From positions 1-21,814 of IMG/VR virus record IMGVR_UViG_3300031566_000420: a DNA stretch of 21,814 nt; one strand, given 5' to 3'. The stretch's first letter is position 1. Each line of letters starts with the position of its first letter. The notes below the pieces were generated by a model. The model did not search any database. It saw nothing but the letters and a program-made list of their open reading frames with translations, and was not told the DNA's origin. This DNA is from a virus. This document shows, in pieces, positions 10,106 through 21,519 of the stretch. The translations under genes were made by a program, and so were the position numbers.

Positions 10106-11377
10106 ATGTCAATCAGACCTTTTGAGAAAAAAGCCCCACATAACTTAGGGATGGATTGGAAGCAGGGTACCGGTGTCCATGCTAGAGATCGTACTACTGT
10201 CCGTAGAGGAATTGTAGAATACAATCGTGATCCTGATCATCGTGGTCGAATTAAGGTTCGTGTGGCTGAAGATGGCCCCGAGTACAGTGCTCGTTTTCCC
10301 GAGCAACCACGGTCGCCAACTCTTTCTCTAGAGTGGTGTTCTCCTTTATTTGGGAGTTATGCAGGTATGGGTTTTGGGTCGTTCACGGTGCCCCCTGTGG
10401 GTGCTCGGGTATATGTGATGTATGAACGTTCCCATCCAGAACAGCCCGTCTACTTTGGTGGTTGGTATGCAAACAGTGTCCGTCGTAGGCGATATGGTGT
10501 TACAAAAACGACTCTAGAACCCCCGATGAAGCAATTCGAAGAGCAGGATGGGTTCAGTGAAGCAGGAACTCCTGGGGGGGACTATATGTATCCTCCACGT
10601 CCTACAAAGTACCAGGGGCACTGGGAAGAGGAACAAGGGCCAGAATTGCCCCTAGAACTCGCGGATATGGTAGACCATACTCCGGACACCCAAATGTTTT
10701 TCAAGACGCTCAAGGGGGCTTCTCTGCTCGTGAAAGAACGGGATGAAGTAGAAGAGATGGTTTTAACTGACCGTCTTGGGGCAGAACTTCGTTTCGAGTC
10801 CAATACCCCGCTTTTAGAGAATGGTGTTCTTCGCCGTGGTCGGGTTTCAGGCACGCAACACGAGCCTATGAGTTTGGATAACCTATCCCATTTTACTCAC
10901 AATGTTTCATTAGTGAATGCTGTTCGGTCTGGGTTGGAGATTAGTTCGGGAACTATTGGGGATGATAACTCAATTAAACTAGACATTCATCCTGAGCAAA
11001 CGCAAAAGAAGAACACAGAATTATTTGATACACGAGCTGCTATGGAACTAGATCCTGGAGAAGATAGAATTAAGCTCCTTTATCGTGAAGAAGGAGAAGA
11101 CTTAGGCTATATTCTTTTTGACCGGTTAGGTCGAAGATTAGATATCGTAGGGATGCAGTCTATGTCAATCACATCTACTGAAGAGATTGACATCCGTGCT
11201 CCTAAAATTAAATTAACAGGGGATATAGATATAGAGGGCGAAGTCAGCTATTTTGGTAATCAAAAGTCGGTGTTTATAGAGGCGGATATGGAACCGTGCG
11301 CTACTCCTTTTAGAAACTATATTCCGTGTTCTACGCGGTCTTCAATTTGGCGGGGTACGCGGGAGTATAAAAGATAA
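10106..11377 (+). CDS. Baseplate spike protein, gp5 / gpV type, without lysozyme domain
   Basis: This encodes 423 residues. Residues of about 31-126 form the OB-fold of the gp5/gpV/VgrG family: RRGIVEYNRDPDHRGRIKVRV, then FGSFTVPPVGARVYVMYERSHPEQPVYFGGWY, with the family's P-P-x-G-x-x-V-x-V and P-V-x-x-G signatures. The middle (about 195-345) is beta-rich. The C-terminus has a few octad-like strands (SMSITSTEEIDIRAPKIKLTGDIDIEG) of the type that build the triangular needle. No lysozyme domain is present, and there is no terminal H-x-H iron-binding motif. Instead the protein ends with an unusual segment carrying Cys398 and Cys408 and a basic tail. The tip may therefore be supplied by another protein. 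The stop overlaps the next start (TAATG at 11375-11379). Confidence 0.92.
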   Translation: MSIRPFEKKAPHNLGMDWKQGTGVHARDRTTVRRGIVEYNRDPDHRGRIKVRVAEDGPEYSARFPEQPRSPTLSLEWCSPLFGSYAGMGFGSFTVPPVGARVYVMYERSHPEQPVYFGGWYANSVRRRRYGVTKTTLEPPMKQFEEQDGFSEAGTPGGDYMYPPRPTKYQGHWEEEQGPELPLELADMVDHTPDTQMFFKTLKGASLLVKERDEVEEMVLTDRLGAELRFESNTPLLENGVLRRGRVSGTQHEPMSLDNLSHFTHNVSLVNAVRSGLEISSGTIGDDNSIKLDIHPEQTQKKNTELFDTRAAMELDPGEDRIKLLYREEGEDLGYILFDRLGRRLDIVGMQSMSITSTEEIDIRAPKIKLTGDIDIEGEVSYFGNQKSVFIEADMEPCATPFRNYIPCSTRSSIWRGTREYKR

Positions 11378-14300
11378 TGCCTAACACGTTTAAAGGAGAC
11401 ATCAAAACTCTGTATACGTTCTACAGGTTGTCTGATTATGAGATGACCAATATTGCGCTTACAGACAAGGTACTGGAAGCAGGTACTGGTCCTCTACACT
11501 TTGAAGGGCACATGACCTGGAGTTTTAATAAGTGTATCTTCCAGGATGTTTTTGTTTATGGTATCGCGGGGCCAAGATTAGATGGAGATAAACGGGGTGA
11601 AGAAGGCTTTGATCCGTACCCTCCTTATGGCAGTAATGGTATAGTTTTTGATGGGTGTACTTTTGATAAAGAGTTCGAAATTTGGGACAACTGTGTTGTT
11701 GTTTTTAAAAGCTGCGTATTTAACAACACAGAACCAGTAAAAATAGGCCAAAATACCAGGGTTGAATATATTGATTGCGAATTTCATGGCCCAGTAGAGT
11801 TCACATATTTTTGTGAAATTCGTATGCGAGACTGCAAATTTTCTGGTATGCCTTACGCGATTAAAGCTACAGCGGGATGTAAATTCTTTATCGACGAAAC
11901 TACCGCAGAAGGTATTGACGAGTATTTCATTTCTGTTGAAGATGATTGTCAGGTGGATGTTTCTTCAAAAGAAGCCACTAGTTACACAACTACTAGTGGT
12001 CCTGTTTTCAAAGGAACAGATCACTCATCTATCCGTCTGTACGGTCTTGGTACGGTAGAAAGCCAGATAGGGCCAGCACTTGAAGTATCCGATAGTTCCA
12101 AAATTGAAGTTAGAAAAACCACAGAGATTAAGTCTCCTCAAGGGGACGCCGTTTCTATTTCTGAGGAGAGTGAGGGGTACTTCAACTCCCTCCAATTAGT
12201 AGAGTCCACCCAGAGTAATGCTTTCCTTTTGGACAAAAGTGTGCTCAGAATCAAAGATGTGGCGCAGGTTTTGTCCACACAACAGTCGGCTATAAACGCT
12301 ACGGATTCCAAGATTTACGGTCTGACCGTGATTGAGTTTAGTAGCTCTGAGGGCGTAGCCATTAAAGGAGTGCGCTCTAGTTTCGATCTTGCGGAGGGGG
12401 AACAGATCTCCTCTACAGGAGAAGAGGCGGTTAACCTTACTGGGGAGAGTAAATCTGTTTTCCGAGACTTTACAAAGGTTGAGGGTAAGACAACCGGAGC
12501 CAGTATCAATGATTCGGCCCAAGCCTTTTTCCAACGAGTTCAAGATGCTGTTCGTGGTTTGGAAGAGGCTGGGTGCGAGGTTGATGGTGGAATTCTTCGT
12601 GTCGCAGACTGTAATCTCATTGAGGGACTAACCTCTGGTGTGATCGCATCAAACTCAGCCAGAGTTCAAACAAGAAGTGTCAAGAAAATCCTGGGCATCC
12701 AAGAGGTTGGCTTGCTTATGGAGGACAGTGCCTATGATATCCACACAGCAACAGAGGGGATCTTTGGTGTTGATGCTGCGGTATACCTAGGGAACTGTCA
12801 AGGAGTAATTACTGACGTAGAGGCTATTGTCGGTGAAGATCTCGCCGGGATTATCGTGAATGAGACTTCTGGTCCATCAGAATTTTCACGGATTAAATTG
12901 ATACAAGCCCCTTCCGATGTTGCTGCTTATTTCTCTGTTGGAGAGAATAGCCAAATTCAAGTGACTGAGGTAGATGAAATTACATCAGAGCAGGGAGATG
13001 CCGTTCGGGTATACGTTGGCGAGGGGAGTACGCTAGATTTCTATGATGTGACAAAGATCACGGCTGTAGAGCAAGCGGCTATCCGGGGTGATATCGCGGG
13101 TAGGTTCACGTTGGCTAAATCAGAAGCCATCACTAGTCAGACCAACCAGATTGTTGTTTTGACTGCTCAGGGGATCAATTCATACGTCCGTTTTGCTGAT
13201 GTTGACTCCATGACGACCGATGAAAGTGAAGAGTCTCCTGTCTTTGTTTCTGGGGCGAACACCATAGAGCTAGAGGGTATTGGAGAAATTACTGTAACCA
13301 AGACCGAAGCCAGCGTTGTGGAGCTTCAAGGTAGGGGCGTAGAGTACGGGTCTATTAAGGTTCTTGACTGTCCGAAGATCGAAGCAGATGAATGTAGCAA
13401 TGGTCTGTTCACCCATAATGCTTTGATAACGGACATTGTTGGTACGAATGAGGAGTGCGAAATCCTTTGCAATATTACGAAGTTTGCTGCCTTGTCTGTT
13501 AAAGACACTAACCTGTATCTAAGTAACTACAACAAAATCGAGGCTCAGAGTGAAGGACACGCTATTGATCTTGAGGTGATTAATGCTCGTGGTGTAGAAA
13601 TGAAAATCTACACAGTACGACAAATTATTGGGGGGAAAGATGGTATTCACTACGAGGGACGTGGAAGCCTCAAACTTGTGGACCTTCCTCAAATAGCTGG
13701 TAAGGCGGCTGAAGATCACAGCCTGTTTATCCTAGGAACCGATTTTGTTACTTTTGAAGCTCATAACAGCCATACTGTTTCCGGTCGAGGAAAGGTGAAT
13801 TTTGTTAATGGGCATGGTGCGTTCTATAAATGCTCTCTTAAGGGGGATGTTAATCAGGTTGGCGCACGTTTGGACTTTTTCAACACGCCCATTACCCTCG
13901 ATGCTGCTTTTGACACAGACGTAGCCTCGTCAACATATTTCTTTCACTCGGATGTAACAAACGGGAAAGTTACATCAGCCGGGGTTATTACTTCCGACTT
14001 GAGTAGCTTCCCGCAAGGAGATATCCAGGGTGCTGGAATATTCAACAAGAGTGTTTTCACTGATTATTGGCACCTAGACACCGGAGCCGCAGCTATTTTT
14101 AATGCCCATGAAACAGCACATATACTTCATGTACAGGGTGGTGTGGGTACCGCAGCCTTATTGAATGGATACAAAGGGACAGGTGCAGATGGTTTAGAAA
14201 TTTCAGATGGTGCCGGAGTTATTGCCAACAGTATTGAACTAGCAGATGGGAATATTACTATAAATAACAACTGCGGTTTTATCGGTAATAGAATCGTTGG

Positions 14301-15072
14301 TTTGGCTACCAAAATTCTTACCCAAGCTAATGCTGGATCAATTTTAAACCAAATCGAAGTAGAGGAGCTTGAATTAGACTCTTATGCTGCTTCGATAGCA
14401 AACTACTTGATATTGACCGGGCAAATTACTTTGGGTGGTGCTGATGGTCTACTGCTCAACCGGGCCGAGTGTACAGATATTGTTAGCCAGTATGGGGGCA
14501 ATGCTCTGTTGTTTAACTGGCTTTCTGCCGGGGATATATCTACCAGCACGGATGCGTCCCTAGTAGGTTCTGGTATAGCGGCTACGGGTCTCACATTAGG
14601 TACCGGATCAGGAGTCTCTATTGCTGGGGGTAGTATTGGGAGCGCCCCAGTAGTTCCTAACGCAGCTAGTTTCTTGTCTGCTGGGGCAGATTTAGGTGGT
14701 GATCCTACGGGGCAAGGAAATGCCTTAGTTTTAACGTCGGGGAACACTGTAAACCCAGCCAATGCCGGAATAGTTATCCGTGGATCGGGAACTTTGGCTG
14801 AAGTATACATAAAAACACCTAAAACTTCCATATTACTAGGAGATGGCGGTACAAATTCTGATCTTCTTATTCGGGCAACTTCTGGTTTAGCTAAGTTGCT
14901 TGCTAAAAATATTGAGCGAATAGCTTCTGCGGATATCTTTGATGAAGCTACAGGAGACATTATTAGAAATGCTACCGGAGATATCGTAGACATCGCTACT
15001 GATCTTGACCGCCAGGGTTCTGGAACGATTACAGATACGGCTACTGCGATTGTCCACGTTCCGCCAGTGTAA
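11377..15072 (+). CDS. Giant beta-solenoid (parallel beta-helix) baseplate protein
   Basis: This encodes 1231 residues made almost wholly of repeats. Residues 50-160 have a motif hydrophobic-F-x-x-C-x-F recurring every 19-21 residues. Residues 208-615 form about 17 rungs of 23-26 residues (G-x-A-V/I start, a D/E-x-S turn, then I-x-x-V-x-x-I), with less regular rungs to about 780. Residues 886-1086 form 11 rungs of 18-21 residues, nine with a fixed Asn. Residues 1186-1209 show 8-residue steps (ATGDIIRN, ATGDIVDI) like the gp5/VgrG needle. This predicts a very long parallel beta-helix. I see no pectate-lyase or other polysaccharide-cleaving active site and no typical tailspike head-binding domain. 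Placed between spike and gp25 and starting by TAATG overlap with the spike gene, it is probably a baseplate or spike-associated structural protein. A depolymerase tailspike remains possible. Confidence 0.85.
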   Translation: MPNTFKGDIKTLYTFYRLSDYEMTNIALTDKVLEAGTGPLHFEGHMTWSFNKCIFQDVFVYGIAGPRLDGDKRGEEGFDPYPPYGSNGIVFDGCTFDKEFEIWDNCVVVFKSCVFNNTEPVKIGQNTRVEYIDCEFHGPVEFTYFCEIRMRDCKFSGMPYAIKATAGCKFFIDETTAEGIDEYFISVEDDCQVDVSSKEATSYTTTSGPVFKGTDHSSIRLYGLGTVESQIGPALEVSDSSKIEVRKTTEIKSPQGDAVSISEESEGYFNSLQLVESTQSNAFLLDKSVLRIKDVAQVLSTQQSAINATDSKIYGLTVIEFSSSEGVAIKGVRSSFDLAEGEQISSTGEEAVNLTGESKSVFRDFTKVEGKTTGASINDSAQAFFQRVQDAVRGLEEAGCEVDGGILRVADCNLIEGLTSGVIASNSARVQTRSVKKILGIQEVGLLMEDSAYDIHTATEGIFGVDAAVYLGNCQGVITDVEAIVGEDLAGIIVNETSGPSEFSRIKLIQAPSDVAAYFSVGENSQIQVTEVDEITSEQGDAVRVYVGEGSTLDFYDVTKITAVEQAAIRGDIAGRFTLAKSEAITSQTNQIVVLTAQGINSYVRFADVDSMTTDESEESPVFVSGANTIELEGIGEITVTKTEASVVELQGRGVEYGSIKVLDCPKIEADECSNGLFTHNALITDIVGTNEECEILCNITKFAALSVKDTNLYLSNYNKIEAQSEGHAIDLEVINARGVEMKIYTVRQIIGGKDGIHYEGRGSLKLVDLPQIAGKAAEDHSLFILGTDFVTFEAHNSHTVSGRGKVNFVNGHGAFYKCSLKGDVNQVGARLDFFNTPITLDAAFDTDVASSTYFFHSDVTNGKVTSAGVITSDLSSFPQGDIQGAGIFNKSVFTDYWHLDTGAAAIFNAHETAHILHVQGGVGTAALLNGYKGTGADGLEISDGAGVIANSIELADGNITINNNCGFIGNRIVGLATKILTQANAGSILNQIEVEELELDSYAASIANYLILTGQITLGGADGLLLNRAECTDIVSQYGGNALLFNWLSAGDISTSTDASLVGSGIAATGLTLGTGSGVSIAGGSIGSAPVVPNAASFLSAGADLGGDPTGQGNALVLTSGNTVNPANAGIVIRGSGTLAEVYIKTPKTSILLGDGGTNSDLLIRATSGLAKLLAKNIERIASADIFDEATGDIIRNATGDIVDIATDLDRQGSGTITDTATAIVHVPPV
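11533..11835 (+). repeat. Cys-ladder repeats in the solenoid N-terminus
   Basis: Residues 53, 94, 113, 134 and 153 are cysteines in the same motif context (CIF, CTF, CVF, CEF, CKF). The spacings are 41 (twice about 20), 19, 21 and 19. This is the signature of a residue stacked in successive turns of a beta-helix. Confidence 0.8.
11998..13221 (+). repeat. Array of about 17 protein repeats of 23-26 residues
   Basis: Successive repeats begin at residues 208, 232, 256, 280, 303, 326, 349, 373, 397, 420, 443, 466, 489, 514, 540, 566 and 590. Typical units are GPALEVSDSSKIEVRKTT and GDAVSISEESEGYFNSLQ. The DNA has diverged, so the array is old or maintained by structure rather than a recent tandem duplication. 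Confidence 0.8.
14032..14634 (+). repeat. Second repeat array with an asparagine ladder
   Basis: Asn residues at 890, 909, 930, 951, 971, 991, 1009, 1028 and 1047 each follow two or three small/hydrophobic residues (IFN, IFN, LLN, IAN, IGN, ILN, IAN, LLN, LFN). Spacings are 18-21. Two further rungs have Ser1065 and Gly1084 at the equivalent place. Stacked asparagines of this kind are known from parallel beta-helices. Confidence 0.82.
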
Positions 15073-15083
15073 GGAGGTAGCGC

Positions 15084-15755
15084 ATGTATGACTACAGGCT
15101 ACAGATGCCGAACATAAACGTAGGTTTTTATGAGCCTCGTTATGCACGGGCACACCAGTTAGACAAGGTGGACAATATCGCGGTTGATACTTCTGCCTTG
15201 TCTCGTACAGAAGGAGTCTACATCCCGTTGGGGTTTCCGAGTCAAACTCTAAGCGCGATATGGTTATCCGCCGTTATAAACAGTCGGCGGAGTAATAAGC
15301 CTAACACTGAGTTCCTTATGGAAACTGAAACAGATTTCATGGCGGGAGAAAAGTCACCAACGGATTTGCTTTCCGCTGTAGCGTTACTTAACCGAAAAAG
15401 TAAGGCTCATGGCTGGTCTTACACGCTTTCATGTATTGGCTCCTGGGAGAATCTCCTCCTTTGTCTCATGGAGGGGAACACGGTGATGGTAGGTGGGTCC
15501 GTGTACGAGAGTTTTCAGCAAGCGGAGATCAGCGGTATCGTGCCCATGCCTAAGCCCGGAGAGGCTTTATTGGGTGGTCAGATTGTTAACATCGTGTCTT
15601 TTGACCAGAAGGCCGAGACGGGGCAGGTGTTTGGCAATATGGGGACCAAGACTGGACGCAGAGGAATATTTACCTATCGGGGGTCATATTTCCGGAACCT
15701 ACAGATTTGCCGAGACTTTTTTGTGTTGATACCGAGGTTTGAACATGCCAATTAG
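15084..15755 (+). CDS. Papain-like (peptidase C1 family) pseudoenzyme in the baseplate cluster
   Basis: This encodes 223 residues from ATG 15084 behind AAGGAGGT. Residues 110-217 read like the second half of bacterial C1-family cysteine peptidases: a W-E-N-L-L-L-C-L-M-E-G helix, GGSVYESFQQAEISGIVPMP, LLGGQIVNIVSFD, VFGNMGTKTGRRGIFTY and RDFFVLIP. Family members have VYESF, G-x-V-P-M-P, GGHAV-x-x-V-G-Y-D, R-N-S-W-G and D-F-W-x-I at these places. The catalytic His of GGHAV is replaced by Gln166, and NSWG is reduced to Asn185-Met-Gly. In the N-terminal helix where Q-x5-C should occur (about residues 53-62) there is no cysteine at all. The fold is therefore probably kept and the activity lost, with a structural or binding role in the baseplate. 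The gene overlaps gp25 by 11 bases. The family call rests on visual motif matching. Confidence 0.72.
   Translation: MYDYRLQMPNINVGFYEPRYARAHQLDKVDNIAVDTSALSRTEGVYIPLGFPSQTLSAIWLSAVINSRRSNKPNTEFLMETETDFMAGEKSPTDLLSAVALLNRKSKAHGWSYTLSCIGSWENLLLCLMEGNTVMVGGSVYESFQQAEISGIVPMPKPGEALLGGQIVNIVSFDQKAETGQVFGNMGTKTGRRGIFTYRGSYFRNLQICRDFFVLIPRFEHAN
15734..15737 (+). promoter_or_regulatory. Ribosome binding site that decides the gp25 start
   Basis: GAGG lies 7 bases before ATG 15745. The upstream in-frame TTG at 15739 is only one base from it and cannot use it, so ATG 15745 is preferred. Confidence 0.7.
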
Positions 15756-16272
15756 TGAAGAAGACAAACGACAATTAGCTATAGAACAAACAGTTTATAC
15801 TAATCTCACTGAAATCATTGGGAATGGTATCAACTTTCCTATGGAGTTTACTACTAGTAAGAAAATTGGGGCAATTAAAGAGTCAAATGCGGGCGAACGC
15901 ATTTCAGACTCTATTCACCTTATTTTAGCTACGCGAATTGGCGAACGACCGTTCAATCCTGAGTTTGGAAGTAGGCTCCCTGAGCTTGTATTTGAACCTT
16001 TAGACGGTGCCTTGAAAGAATTGTTAAGGCACTACACTGTGGATGCCCTTGCTCGTTGGGAAAAACGTATAAAAATCGAACAGGTTGTTTTGACGGAGAA
16101 CTATGAATCCAACCCCAATGCAGTTGGGATTTCGATCTATTACGCTATTCGGAATTCACATATTAAGGGTAGCTATGTGTACCCCTTTGTTCTTGGTGGG
16201 ATGGCTACCACGGCCCAATACACAGGATCAGAGTCCAACAAGATGTTGGCCCAGCGAAATGTGAGGTCATAA
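15745..16272 (+). CDS. Baseplate wedge protein gp25 / gpW family
   Basis: This encodes 175 residues (MPISEEDKRQLA start). The core matches the GPW/gp25 family: ISDSIHLILATRIGERPFNPEFGSRLPELVFEPLD at about residues 55-89, with the family's L-x-T-x-x-G-E-R and E-F-G-S, then a helix LLRHYTVDALARWEKRI and the strand pair IEQVVLTENY and AVGISIYYAIR. gp25 is the core wedge protein that contacts the first sheath ring and the gp6/gpJ dimer and links baseplate change to sheath contraction. About 45 residues precede the core and 25 follow it, so this copy is somewhat longer than the compact family members. It overlaps the previous gene by 11 bases and is followed 3 bases later by gpJ. Confidence 0.95.
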   Translation: MPISEEDKRQLAIEQTVYTNLTEIIGNGINFPMEFTTSKKIGAIKESNAGERISDSIHLILATRIGERPFNPEFGSRLPELVFEPLDGALKELLRHYTVDALARWEKRIKIEQVVLTENYESNPNAVGISIYYAIRNSHIKGSYVYPFVLGGMATTAQYTGSESNKMLAQRNVRS

Positions 16273-16275
16273 GTT

Positions 16276-17829
16276 ATGGCTGTTGTTAAGTATAAGACCG
16301 ATTATTTCCTCAAAGATTACGCGACTATCCGAGAGGAAATGATTGAACGTTTGCCTATTATTTCTGAGGGCAAACTGACAGATTTAAACGAGTCTTCTAT
16401 TTCTGTCACTCTCGTTGAGGTATTTGCGGCTATCGCTGATATGCTGGGGTTCTATTTAGACTCAAACGCTTTAGAAGCTTTTTTACCAACAGTTAGGCAG
16501 CCGGAAAACGTATATCGTTTGACTGAGTTAATTGGTTATAGAATTCGTGAAGTTACTTCGGCCAAAGCTAGAGTTCAGTTTACCTTGGCTGCACCGTTAA
16601 CTGAAGAGGTTTTTATCCCCGTTGGGACAGAGCTTGGAACAGTTGTAAGTGGTGGAATCGGCCAAGATACCATGTTCCGGACTATAGAGAAAACAACTAT
16701 CCCAATTGGAGAAACTGTTAGTGAAACCGTAAATACTGTTCAAGGAGTCCCATATTCTGAGACATTTGTTGGGGATGGGAACGCAGGACAATATTCGGAG
16801 CTATCTCAAATTTCAGTGGATATAAGTACGATTAGAATTATGTCGGGGGATGTCCTTTGGACACAACAAGATAGCTTTCTTTACAGTGAAAGTGAAGACA
16901 GAGACTTTGTAGTCAAGGTAGACTATCTAGGGGTTGTTCGGGTCTATTATGGTGATGGAAAATACGGAAAAGTTCCTGGTGTTGGTGAAATGCTCACCGT
17001 TAGCTATCTTCGTTCGTCAGGAGAAGCAGGCAATGTAGGAGTGAATTCTATTCGGGTTATTGCATCTAATATTAAAACTATAGATACCAACACGGTTATT
17101 TCTAATATTACTGTAACCAACCCAGACTCTGCTGCGGGTGGGAGTGGCAAGCAGTCTCTAGAACACGTAAAAGTGAATGCCCCAGGGTCTCTGTCTGCTT
17201 TGTACCGCCCGTTGACGAAATATGACTATAACGCTCTGCTCGCTCGGTTAGGTGGGATTGCTCATGTAAACGTGTGGGGTGAGCAAGAAGAGGACCCCCC
17301 ATCATATGAAAACATGAACTGGGCCAACGTAGTCTTAGTCCCCACAGGTGGAGGGTTACCTTCTCAAAACTTGATGGATCAAGTTAAAGACTATCTCCTA
17401 CAATATCAACCAATTACAGTACGAGTACGGTTTATTGACCCCGAGTATATCTATATCAATGTTCCTTTGGACATCTATGTTCTTCCTGGGTACTCACAGA
17501 ATGACTTGCGTATCTGGGTAACGGATGAAATTCGAACATTTTTCAAACTAGAAAATGTTAGGTTTGGACAAGATCTTCGTGCCTCGACTTTCTACAGAAT
17601 TGCTATGACACCAGATAAAGTGGCCTACGCCTTTGTTGGGGATCTTGGTACTTATGATAGTGACACGGGTATTGTAACCCCCGTTGGTCAAGAAATTATT
17701 TTACAGAAGTGGCAGATCCCTGTGCTACACAAGGTAATCGTCACTCCGCATGAAGCCACTGAGCTTCCAATTCCAGACCTTTATCCCGATGAAGACGTGG
17801 ATAACGTGATCTGGGACATTGATGGCTAA
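16276..17829 (+). CDS. Baseplate J-like wedge protein (gpJ / gp6 family)
   Basis: This encodes 517 residues. The N-terminal helices (YATIREEMIERLPIISEG, then SSISVTLVEVFAAIADMLGFYLDSNALEAFLPTV at about 40-74) are the standard gpJ start. IPVGTELGT near residue 115 and VRVYYGDGKYGKVPGVGEMLTVSYLRSSGEAGNVG near 218-252 are the diagnostic Baseplate_J motifs (G-D-G-x-x-G-x-x-P, then G-x-x-G-N-V). The C-terminal half contains the two-layer domains (SALYRPLTKYDYNALLARLGGIAHVNVWGEQE) also seen in the family. In the baseplate, dimers of this protein ring the hub together with gp25 and gpI. GAGG at 16263-16266 within the gp25 end serves as ribosome binding site. Confidence 0.96.
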   Translation: MAVVKYKTDYFLKDYATIREEMIERLPIISEGKLTDLNESSISVTLVEVFAAIADMLGFYLDSNALEAFLPTVRQPENVYRLTELIGYRIREVTSAKARVQFTLAAPLTEEVFIPVGTELGTVVSGGIGQDTMFRTIEKTTIPIGETVSETVNTVQGVPYSETFVGDGNAGQYSELSQISVDISTIRIMSGDVLWTQQDSFLYSESEDRDFVVKVDYLGVVRVYYGDGKYGKVPGVGEMLTVSYLRSSGEAGNVGVNSIRVIASNIKTIDTNTVISNITVTNPDSAAGGSGKQSLEHVKVNAPGSLSALYRPLTKYDYNALLARLGGIAHVNVWGEQEEDPPSYENMNWANVVLVPTGGGLPSQNLMDQVKDYLLQYQPITVRVRFIDPEYIYINVPLDIYVLPGYSQNDLRIWVTDEIRTFFKLENVRFGQDLRASTFYRIAMTPDKVAYAFVGDLGTYDSDTGIVTPVGQEIILQKWQIPVLHKVIVTPHEATELPIPDLYPDEDVDNVIWDIDG

Positions 17830-17839
17830 GGAGTAAGTA

Positions 17840-19093
17840 ATGTCGTTTCCGATTATTAGTACAACGAGTGTTTGGGAAAACTGGGATGGCTTTGGAATTG
17901 GTGCTTGGAACATGTGGTTCATGGCCCCCTATGGATCATGGTGCTATTCCGCCTTTGTAAAAGATGGGATTACTTACTTCAAGAAGATCAACATTGGAAC
18001 CAGTGATCCTAACTATGAAATCTCCGACTGGGATTTTGGCGTAACACCAGACCCCCCCTCTTCTGTTTTTGCTTATGAGCAACAGGATGGTTACCCTAAC
18101 GGGTCTATGGGGTTGGGTTGTATTCGTGGCGCTACTCCAAAGTTGTATCTAGCTGGGAGATCTTCGGGTGTTCCTACCATTAATGACACAATCATCCACA
18201 AGTTTGTTGTAGCAGATGGTTTTGATGCTGAGAATTTGGCGAACGGACTTATCCCCATGCTAGGCGGGACTGTGCTGGATATTAATCTTCTGTGTGGCCT
18301 AGAGGTTGTACAGGGGGATGCGCTGTACCTCGTCACAAACAATAACAGTGGTGCCCTGTTCACACTTATGCGGTATGACTATGCTTATTTCGATGGAGGT
18401 GCCCATAATCCTACACATTTTGTGAATATGACCCCACAATTCCTAGAAGATAATGCTGCTGCACGTATTCGGGCAATTGGAATTGCTCGGGATGGGCATA
18501 TCCTAGTCTTTGCTAATACAGGACTTACTTCAACAGAGACTCGCGTGTTCAAATTTGACAAGGACAACTTGGATTATCTTGGACAAACGACCTGGACCCC
18601 CAATATTTCAACGGGGACTTGGGCGTACATGGTTCAACATTCAGACGTATTTATCCACTTCCAAGGGTTAAACAAAACTAGCTTATATGATTGGAAGACT
18701 GCTATCTATTATGACCGGGCTACTGGTATCCCGAATGAGGATAAGAGTAACTTTATCATCGAGGATAACTTGACCACTTTTGGTTCGGAGACTCCCATTG
18801 AACTCAAGTACGAGGCGCGGGACGCTTTTAATAACTTAGTCCCTGGGGCGAATACTAAATTTGTAATTGATGGTGAAGACCCCGATGCTCCGGATACATG
18901 GACAGACCGTGTTGGGGGCATTCAGGATAACCCGCTGAATGACTTTTTTGATGGGGATGGGGTGCCAGAGGCAATCCAAGTTATTGTTCCTACAGATGTT
19001 AATGGCGTAGCTTTGGCATATTACAAACCTATGCGTTCTGGTTCTGGTACTGAGCGAGACGCTATCAACGTATTCTGCCCAACGGATAACTAA
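17840..19093 (+). CDS. Probable baseplate/receptor-contact protein: propeller-like region plus Ig-like domain
   Basis: This encodes 417 residues with no family I can name. Residues of about 40-300 show five or six blade-like units, each with a hydrophobic strand, a polar turn and a second strand (KLYLAGRSSG, then HKFVVADGFDAENL; ALYLVTNNNSG, then LMRYDYAYFDGG; HILVFANTGL, then RVFKFDKDNLDYLG; VFIHFQGLNK, then AIYYDRATG). This suggests a beta-propeller. Residues of about 318-412 look like a bacterial Ig-like domain (IELKYEARDAFNNLVPGANTKFVI, later PTDVNGVALAYYKP) with an acidic insertion. The N-terminus carries a Trp-rich segment (VWENWDGFGIGAWNMW), echoed at the C-terminus of the next gene product. 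Lying between gpJ and gpI, it is likely a virion surface protein. Host binding is inferred from fold type only. Its stop overlaps the next start (TAATG at 19091-19095). Confidence 0.65.
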   Translation: MSFPIISTTSVWENWDGFGIGAWNMWFMAPYGSWCYSAFVKDGITYFKKINIGTSDPNYEISDWDFGVTPDPPSSVFAYEQQDGYPNGSMGLGCIRGATPKLYLAGRSSGVPTINDTIIHKFVVADGFDAENLANGLIPMLGGTVLDINLLCGLEVVQGDALYLVTNNNSGALFTLMRYDYAYFDGGAHNPTHFVNMTPQFLEDNAAARIRAIGIARDGHILVFANTGLTSTETRVFKFDKDNLDYLGQTTWTPNISTGTWAYMVQHSDVFIHFQGLNKTSLYDWKTAIYYDRATGIPNEDKSNFIIEDNLTTFGSETPIELKYEARDAFNNLVPGANTKFVIDGEDPDAPDTWTDRVGGIQDNPLNDFFDGDGVPEAIQVIVPTDVNGVALAYYKPMRSGSGTERDAINVFCPTDN

Positions 19094-21519
19094 TGTCTTG
19101 GTGGGAACCTGTACCAGTTGCGCCTCCGGTGACAGCTTACGGCGTGGTGTATGCCACGGGTGAGGTAGCTGAAGATCAAAACAGCATAAATCTATACCCA
19201 CCAATGTTCCTCCAGGCTTCCGTATCGGTTATCTCCCCTTATGAGGTTGCCACCGCTCAGGGAGAGATCTGGATCGAGTTAATTACCCAGACATATTTCA
19301 GAGACCATTTGAAACAGTACATCCCCTCAGAATACTGGCGTATGGATGCTAGACCCACATCGGAGGGAGGTGGTGGCGGAGCACTGAACGAGTTCACTCA
19401 GGTGTTTGCTATCACTTTGGATGAGATCAAGCAGGCCGTAGATGACTTTACAAAGATTTTCGACATCGAAAATTGCCCGCCGAAGTACCTGCCGATTATT
19501 GCAGATATGATTAACTTCCCCTTGGAGGCCACAGATACGACCGCTGAGCAGCGCAGGCAGCTTAGAACAGCCGTAGAGTGGTACAAATCTAAGGGCAGCC
19601 GTAGGGCCTTCAGAGCCATCCTGTATGCCTTTGGCTTCTACACGGAGATTGTCCCTCTTTGGACAGAGCATACGGATGAGTCTACCATCCTTGATGAGGA
19701 TGGAAATCCCCAGACCAACCTTTATGAGCGATTCTACGAAACGATTCCTGGTGTGGCTACAGGAAATGACCCCCCGAATGACTTTCCGCTGTTGGTGGAG
19801 AACGGGGGGACATGGTTCCGCAGCCCGCACTATGGGATTAAGTTGCTGGGGATCATTGGAGATCGACACGTGTCTATCAACTGGGGGACTATGACCCCTG
19901 GGGAATTGAACGTGTTCGATGAAACGATATCTAGCGAACCTAACGGTGTTATCACGGATTTCACAGGTACTCTGGATTATATCCCGGTCATCCCCGGATC
20001 AGTTTCGATGGACACCTATGTCGTAGGTCTCCCAGAGGTTATTACCGATGATGGACTTGGTGTCCTTTCTGGGGATGATGTGTTTGGTGACCCCATTACG
20101 GGGACCATTGACTACGACACGGGGGAGTGGACACTATCGTTTACTACTGCACCTACTACAAGTACGATTATCTGTGACTATACCTACGATTTCTATGAGC
20201 TTGTGGATCAGATAGGGTTACACCGAGCCTTCTATGACAGGGTGGATCAGCTATCTACGGCGGGAGCCTTGCTCCAGTATTACTTCCCAATTGAAGCTTT
20301 TAACTATCTGTTCCGTAGGATTGAGTTCTTACGCCCGGTGTTTGTTGTTCTCGAATGGCTATCCCTAGCGATAGAGATGCAGGAGAGTTATGACGTTCCT
20401 GAGGGAGAGAACCCTGTTATCATCGTCAATCCTGTCCGCAAAGATAAGGGTTGGTATTTAGGCTACTGTGACCTAGACGATATTACCTACACTCGGCTGG
20501 ACGAGAAGCTCTTAGGCTCAAGCATGTTGACCTTACCTTCCCCTCTAGACCCGCTTGTAGGACCAGGAGTTCATCCTGTTGTTGGTGAATTGGTGGGGAC
20601 GTATAACCCAGTGAACGAGACGGTATCTACAGAACCTGATGGTATTATCTTAAGTTTCTCTGGGCAATTAGATTACCCTGTATTTGCTGGTTCGGTAGAG
20701 ATGACCGCCACAGTAGGTGTACCTGAAACTATTACGGATGACGGGGCGGGGAATCTAACTGGCGCAGGAATAACCGGGACAATTGTGTACAACACAGGCG
20801 AGTGGACACTCGATTTTGTTACGGCTCCCACAGGGACGATTGATGCTGAGTATAGACGGACAGTTATGAGTGGGGCCTTAGGTAATTACTGGATCTTTCC
20901 GGATACCGTATCCCTGGAGTTCACTGTTTCAGCCGCTCCCTATACTATTGAGGATGATACTGAGGGTGTTCTTAATCGGAACAGCCAGGAAGTTACAGGG
21001 CTGATAAATTATGTGAATGGAGACTGGGTAGTCACTTTCGACGGTGCTTTTGTCCCAGATGATGGTTCAAGTGTCTGGGCAGCATACTCATATGCGACGG
21101 AGATACCCCCTACGGATCGTTCTGGGGCACTCCCACGTGGTTCTACTGAACTACCTTTCCCGCACTTGCGCGACCCGCAGGAGGGCTATTGCCACCCACC
21201 TGAGGACTTACTTGTAACGGTTGGCGCAATCTTGCCTGACCCTTATCGCTTGGCCTTGACTCGGGACGGGATGAATCTTTACCCACCCGCAGGACCAGTA
21301 CCATACATTGATCACGCAGACTTCCCCTCTCGTGGATTCACGGACATGTTAGGCGACCCACGACACGCGAATACCTTTACCCGAGAGTTTGGGTATTCTG
21401 ATCGTCCCCTATCTTTATTGAGAGTGGAGGTTAATCCCGTTCCTTCAGCAGAAAACTGGGAGAACCAGGAGACTGAGTGGGAGAACTGGGTCGGGCCTTG
21501 GGAAAATATAGGAGACTAG
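19093..21519 (+). CDS. Enlarged gpI-family tail protein with three copies of the sheath-shared domain
   Basis: This encodes 808 residues, against about 180 for P2 gpI. Residues of about 62-195 are the gpI domain: WIELITQTYFRDHLKQYIP, then FDIENCPPKYLPIIADMINFPLE, RRQLRTAVEWYKSKGSRRAFRAILYAFGF and TEIVPLW, with the family's cP-x-x-x-L-P-x-x-A and K-G-S/T-R-R-A-F patterns. gpI-type proteins sit at the wedge periphery and usually carry fibre attachment. Beta-rich repeats follow at about residues 276-366, 507-588 and 592-669, homologous to the insert in the sheath. The last 21 residues are Trp-rich (ENWENQETEWENW, then GPWEN). The start overlaps the previous stop by one base (TAATG) with no clear Shine-Dalgarno sequence, which implies translational coupling. 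The extra domains may form a baseplate collar or a fibre socket. Confidence 0.9.
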   Translation: MSWWEPVPVAPPVTAYGVVYATGEVAEDQNSINLYPPMFLQASVSVISPYEVATAQGEIWIELITQTYFRDHLKQYIPSEYWRMDARPTSEGGGGGALNEFTQVFAITLDEIKQAVDDFTKIFDIENCPPKYLPIIADMINFPLEATDTTAEQRRQLRTAVEWYKSKGSRRAFRAILYAFGFYTEIVPLWTEHTDESTILDEDGNPQTNLYERFYETIPGVATGNDPPNDFPLLVENGGTWFRSPHYGIKLLGIIGDRHVSINWGTMTPGELNVFDETISSEPNGVITDFTGTLDYIPVIPGSVSMDTYVVGLPEVITDDGLGVLSGDDVFGDPITGTIDYDTGEWTLSFTTAPTTSTIICDYTYDFYELVDQIGLHRAFYDRVDQLSTAGALLQYYFPIEAFNYLFRRIEFLRPVFVVLEWLSLAIEMQESYDVPEGENPVIIVNPVRKDKGWYLGYCDLDDITYTRLDEKLLGSSMLTLPSPLDPLVGPGVHPVVGELVGTYNPVNETVSTEPDGIILSFSGQLDYPVFAGSVEMTATVGVPETITDDGAGNLTGAGITGTIVYNTGEWTLDFVTAPTGTIDAEYRRTVMSGALGNYWIFPDTVSLEFTVSAAPYTIEDDTEGVLNRNSQEVTGLINYVNGDWVVTFDGAFVPDDGSSVWAAYSYATEIPPTDRSGALPRGSTELPFPHLRDPQEGYCHPPEDLLVTVGAILPDPYRLALTRDGMNLYPPAGPVPYIDHADFPSRGFTDMLGDPRHANTFTREFGYSDRPLSLLRVEVNPVPSAENWENQETEWENWVGPWENIGD
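19918..20190 (+). repeat. Shared beta-rich domain, copy 1 in the gpI-like protein
   Basis: Residues of about 276-366: EPNGVITDF, VIPGSVSMDT, VITDDGLGVLSG, ITGTIDYDTGEWTLSFTTAP and IICDYTY. This is the closest match to the sheath insert at 772-1071 in order and spacing of motifs. Confidence 0.85.
20611..20856 (+). repeat. Shared beta-rich domain, copy 2 in the gpI-like protein
   Basis: Residues of about 507-588: NETVSTEPDGIILSFSGQL, FAGSVEMTATVG, TITDDGAGNLTG, ITGTIVYNTGEWTLDFVTAP and IDAEY. It matches copy 1 nearly motif for motif. Confidence 0.85.
20866..21099 (+). repeat. Shared beta-rich domain, copy 3 (diverged) in the gpI-like protein
   Basis: Residues of about 592-669: FPDTVSLEFTV, YTIEDDTEGVLN, VTGLINYVNGDWVVTF and WAAYSYAT. 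It keeps the DD turn and the TG-x-I-x-Y-x-x-G-x-W core but lacks the leading PDGI strand. It follows copy 2 almost directly. Confidence 0.7.

Follow-up and report, generated by a model that had tools for sequence, protein, structure and literature searches.

P0001, a gene of the window (the whole stretch of viral DNA analysed, 21,814 nt), encoded a protein homologous over its full length to the xylellain-type C1A (papain-family) peptidases, and, judged from its residues and its predicted structure, no catalysis is plausible for its family. Since the predicted papain fold lacks the residues for cutting proteins, P0001 has probably taken on a structural or binding role. The preferred reading (probability roughly 0.6) is that a C1A peptidase was acquired and disarmed and, alongside a solenoid gene, became established in the baseplate operon as a non-enzymatic structural adaptor; its presence in the virion, its partner, and its adaptor role are what we infer. 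The carriers are a group of uncultivated contractile-tailed phages. The locus had the following features:

10106..11377, + strand, gpV-like spike / OB-domain baseplate gene
11377..15072, + strand, gene for a repetitive solenoid protein (1231 aa, weak Beta_helix match)
15072..15077, + strand, Shine-Dalgarno-like stretch AAGGAGGT, 5′ of ATG 15084 (from sequence)
15084..15755, + strand, P0001, pseudopeptidase gene of predicted papain fold (C1A, xylellain-type; 223 aa, ATG start; from homology and predicted fold)
15084..15143, + strand, N-terminal segment, residues 1–20, counterpart of the YGWxPDLPDxRD segment in intact enzymes
15225..15227, + strand, Pro48 at the oxyanion-hole Gln position (Pro in 7/7 orthologues)
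15243..15245, + strand, Gln54 at the catalytic Cys position (hhalign), start of helix 54–70
15579..15581, + strand, Gln166 at the catalytic His position (Gln in three orthologues, His in four)
15633..15644, + strand, GNMG in the place of NSWG, residues 184–187 (N185 invariant)
15678..15725, + strand, lineage-specific C-terminal motif RGSYxRNLxICRDFFV, residues 199–214 (from the orthologue alignment)
15745..16272, + strand, gp25-like baseplate wedge gene (Pfam GPW_gp25, E = 5e-18)
16276..17829, + strand, Baseplate J-like wedge gene

The pseudopeptidase gene was located in a contractile-tail cluster with the order sheath, tube, T4-type baseplate protein (Pfam T4_baseplate), long gene in the tape-measure position, wedge gene, hub, gpV, solenoid, pseudopeptidase, gp25, J, unknown gene, and P2 gpI. 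It had a good ribosome-binding site, AAGGAGGT, whose 3′ edge lay about 6 bases before the ATG, and its 3′ end overlapped gp25 by 11 nt (gp25 start at ATG 15745) or 17 nt (start at TTG 15739). Orthologues were found via the neighbouring genes in seven viral contigs, six of them distinct (L005 and L007 differed by four bases over 21.5 kb), with 39–62% identity and in the same place. The initial annotation had put the gene between the solenoid and gp25 genes with an overlap into the latter, and this was true of the window and of all seven relative contigs, the overlap being 11 nt or similar; the proposed membership of the baseplate set was borne out as gene position, a fixed place in the baseplate cluster being kept in every relative found. 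The solenoid protein was fast evolving, with residues 1–150 best conserved.

Further variation was seen around these genes: (i) an extra ORF of about 100 codons lay between the solenoid and pseudopeptidase genes in L005 (8411–8778), L006 (8491–8824), and L010 (8472–8800) and was absent from the other relatives, and its three predicted products did not resemble one another; and (ii) the gpV-like gene of L011 (3370–4746) was composed of two ORFs (306 and 120 aa), while the others had a single ORF. The gene between J and gpI (17840–19093) encoded a 417-aa protein, 57–79% conserved in relatives, which had no Pfam match and a nonsignificant PHROG match (E = 0.18) and looks lineage specific. A beta-rich module of ~70 residues (PGSV...DDG.G.L...ITGTIDY.TGEWTL.F) was inserted in the tail sheath (463–2304, residues ~105–205), was present about three times in the gpI-like protein (19093–21519; residues ~280–370, 510–590, and 590–660), and was also found in proteins of relatives, as a decoration domain common to different tail proteins.

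Neither P0001 nor any orthologue had a usable match in Pfam, PHROGs, or NCBIfam, and a scan of viral contigs with the single P0001 sequence found no relative, the family having surfaced via the neighbour-gene and alignment scans. The relationship to C1 peptidases was seen at three levels: (i) P0001 alone matched xylellain (3OIS; phmmer E = 3.2e-6) and an intact C1 enzyme of a 595-kb uncultured phage (tblastn E = 1e-9); (ii) the profile of the seven orthologues (the window plus the six distinct relatives) aligned with a profile of 19 intact enzymes over 208 columns at an hhalign probability of 99.6%; and (iii) an HMM of the 19 intact enzymes matched the window at E = 3.9e-22 and found each of the seven phage records (E = 1.8e-18 to 3.9e-22). 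The intact C1 enzymes, from phages and bacteria, had been gathered by pattern scans with the orthologue alignment, and the 19 used in the comparison all matched Pfam Peptidase_C1, while P0001 itself fell below it. Within C1, the xylellain-type C1A enzymes are the closest relatives. A C1 pattern had initially been noticed in the C-terminal half of P0001; the resemblance stood, but its restriction to that half did not, because the homology was full-length and included the N-terminal segment.

A two-lobe papain fold is predicted for P0001. The AlphaFold2 model from the seven orthologues only, with no intact enzymes in the alignment, had pLDDT 72 and pTM 0.74; its first Foldseek match was xylellain (E = 5e-7), and VIA-align superposed 191 residues on xylellain with Z 12.7. 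The deeper model, built from 27 alignment rows including intact enzymes, had pLDDT 92.5 and pTM 0.89 and matched xylellain with Z 20.6 over 206 residues at 2.7 Å (Foldseek E = 4e-13); the intact enzymes in its alignment could bias it toward the papain fold, but the orthologue-only model led to the same top match. The earlier assignment to the papain superfamily was thus recovered by structure prediction and fold search, with xylellain rather than an unrelated fold in first place. The superposition began with residue 1 of the model against residue 32 of xylellain, which places the N-terminal segment as in xylellain, where it reportedly blocks the active site of the enzyme. This segment contained the invariant residues Y4, Q7, P9, N10, N12, and R19 (motif YxxQLPNxN), and, since it superposes on that of xylellain and its motif is strongly conserved, the old cleft in the modelled structure is probably filled from within.

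The catalytic residues of papain are Cys25, which starts the L-domain helix, the oxyanion Gln19, His159, and Asn175 in NSWG. For the first two, hhalign paired VYDQGxLGSCT of the intact enzymes with VYIPLGFPSQT of P0001, turning Cys into Gln54 and the oxyanion Gln into Pro48. MAFFT placed the Cys site at Phe51, three residues away and likewise not Cys; Gln54 was favoured because helix 54–70 of the deeper model begins there, as Cys25 begins its helix in papain. Across the seven orthologues, the Cys position held Q, Q, Q, Q, V, P, and P. The His position was Gln in the window, L008, and L010 and His in L011, L005, L009, and L006; since L011 lies between Gln-bearing lineages in the tree of gp25, J, and gene 17840, this site has changed at least twice. 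The NSWG counterpart in the family was GN(M/R/L)G or similar, and the Asn175 position corresponded to Gly184 in the ungapped alignment and to the invariant Asn185 after a one-residue shift. The initial annotation had reported Gln166 in place of the catalytic His, a broken NSWG box, and a nucleophile helix without Cys, and comparison with the intact C1 enzymes at the Cys25 and His159 equivalents (Gln54 and Gln166 in the window) agreed with it on each point, P0001 having GNMG for NSWG and its first Cys at residue 117, while L009 contained no cysteine at all. An alternative Cys–His pair drawn from Cys117, Cys127, or Cys209 had been envisaged as a rescue of activity and was not found: Cys117 and Cys127 were unique to the window, Cys209 was replaced by Phe or Ser in two orthologues, the only His residues of the window protein (24, 109, and 221) were not conserved, and the family had no conserved His.

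The seven orthologues formed one clade (support 100/100) on a long branch. Their identity among relatives was 39–62%, compared with 58–70% for gp25 and 63–84% for J. Relative to the nearest relative, pN was 0.25 and pS was 0.75, i.e., nonsynonymous differences per site were about one third as frequent as synonymous ones, and second codon positions changed least (0.16 versus 0.59 at third positions); over the whole gene, pN was 0.25 to 0.46 and pS was 0.73 to 0.82, these proportions being given instead of dN/dS because synonymous sites were saturated. The reading frame was open in all seven, and lineage-specific invariant residues occurred throughout; the invariance of Ala222 is accounted for by the gp25 start overlapping there. 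The substitution pattern indicates that the gene is not decaying. A search of the seven records (which may be fragments) with the intact-enzyme profile found no second, intact C1 copy that might be a partner.

In the proposed course of events, an ancestor of the myovirus lineage of the window would have acquired a xylellain-type C1A peptidase, catalysis would have been lost, and the gene, along with that of the solenoid, would have been fixed in the baseplate operon. The two-lobe papain body would then serve as a rigid bracket at the wedge or spike rim of the baseplate and would probably link the solenoid protein with the wedge (gp25/J). The zymogen-like N-terminal segment would remain docked in the dead cleft, and new contacts might form through lineage-specific surfaces, e.g., RGSYxRNLxICRDFF. 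The inert papain body, the conserved lineage motifs, the overlap with gp25, and the solenoid neighbourhood fit such an adaptor; its faster divergence than gp25 and J, less typical of a core structural part, was counted against it.

Gene position by itself would also fit an assembly factor or dedicated chaperone of the solenoid protein: the dead papain body would bind to the solenoid chain while this folds or is attached, and would be missing from the finished particle. The pseudopeptidase gene directly followed the solenoid gene in the window, L008, L011, and L009, and papain-like pseudoenzymes act as scaffolds elsewhere (PAN2, menin, and Rad4/XPC; PMC10318531). However, in L005, L006, and L010 the two genes were about 330–370 nt apart, and the place of the pseudopeptidase gene and its overlap with gp25 were kept despite this gap, which points to a tighter tie to gp25 and leaves the chaperone explanation unlikely.

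Host recognition, initially suggested for a surface peptide, would have the dead fold bind a cell-surface peptide or glycan. The divergence of the pseudopeptidase beyond that of the wedge genes is consistent with this, as is its adjoining the fast-evolving solenoid, which may be an adhesin; but the best-conserved stretches were motifs common to all relatives rather than variable loops, and the N-terminal segment appears, in the model, to cover the old cleft, which argues against a free peptide groove, so this explanation is doubtful. The same segment could have been retained as a mechanical part, namely an uncut, displaceable latch in the dead cleft that would be displaced, e.g., at the baseplate switch before contraction; this is rather improbable, and, if true, a protease-zymogen switch would have been turned into a structural switch.

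That P0001 is still an enzyme, with another nucleophile or residue set, is very improbable: Asn185 is invariant and His is kept in four of the seven orthologues, but the Cys position is Gln, Val, or Pro and never Ser or Thr, the oxyanion Gln has become Pro, no Cys–His pair is conserved (with L009 devoid of Cys), and the repeated change of the His position is as expected without function. Least probable is that the gene is a decaying remnant retained solely for the ribosome-binding region and start of gp25 in its 3′ end, a view that would explain the overlap and Ala222 but not the frame open in 7/7, the gene-wide excess of pS over pN, or the lineage-specific invariant residues along the whole gene.

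The outside homologues examined retained Cys, His, and NSW. Among 18 records with intact C1, gp25 was present in one and lay far from the C1 gene on that contig, and no C1 gene was found at the other gp25-type loci scanned with C1 profiles; the intact-triad homologue adjoining gp25 that the initial annotation had thought worth seeking was accordingly not encountered in these records and loci. Streptococcus phage vB_SagM-GXN1, a distant relative (J 28%), had the same gene order with gpV overlapping gp25 directly, and, since gpV runs straight into gp25 there, the solenoid and dead papain genes appear to have been inserted between these two in the lineage of the window. Another distant baseplate relative, phage DP SC_2_H4_2017 (L109 23575–24156), had a gene roughly 10 kb downstream of J for a short C1-like protein in which Cys, His, and NSWG are retained.

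Where phage tails contain papain-like domains, these are usually active lysins. P0001 would be a clear example of an enzyme turned into a structural part of a contractile machine: a C1 peptidase that was disarmed and became fixed among baseplate genes, and whose intact relatives in other phages allow comparison. It also gives baseplate structure work a named target, namely what the dead protease holds and whether the pro-segment is still in the cleft. Because Pfam, PHROGs, and NCBIfam miss P0001, such baseplate parts stay unannotated. Acquisition of xylellain-type C1A peptidases by Myoviridae and Siphoviridae has already been published (PMC10380794). The disarmed baseplate form did not turn up in the literature searched, which covered few subscription papers and described no papain-fold pseudoenzyme in a phage baseplate.

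P0001 and known systems compare as follows. Xylellain (3OIS), a short bacterial C1A cysteine peptidase from Xylella fastidiosa, shared with P0001 the full-length fold, as predicted, together with the N-terminal segment, VYxSF, LGGH/Q, the NxxG region, and the DFF/W ending, but the P0001 orthologues had neither the catalytic Cys nor the oxyanion Gln, His was gone in three of the seven, and P0001 lacked about 30 residues of the middle part and was encoded in a phage baseplate operon. Intact phage xylellain-type C1A enzymes (LR756511, Burkholderia phage FLC9, and IMG/VR contigs L060–L084) belonged to the same subfamily and shared the TGIVPMPKxxExLGG motif, but they kept Cys, His, and NSW, unlike the P0001 family. 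The CHAP domain of the phi812 hub protein (9EUM; Foldseek E = 0.042 and rank 38 with the orthologue-only model) was likewise a papain-like domain in a phage baseplate, but its title names a lytic cleaver, meaning an active lysin domain within the hub, and it belongs to a different family. PAN2, menin, Rad4/XPC, and ARMC3 are non-catalytic papain-like folds reused for binding or scaffolding (PMC10318531) and resemble P0001 in this loss of catalysis, but they are cellular and belong to other papain-like clusters, and their inactivation arose separately from that of P0001.
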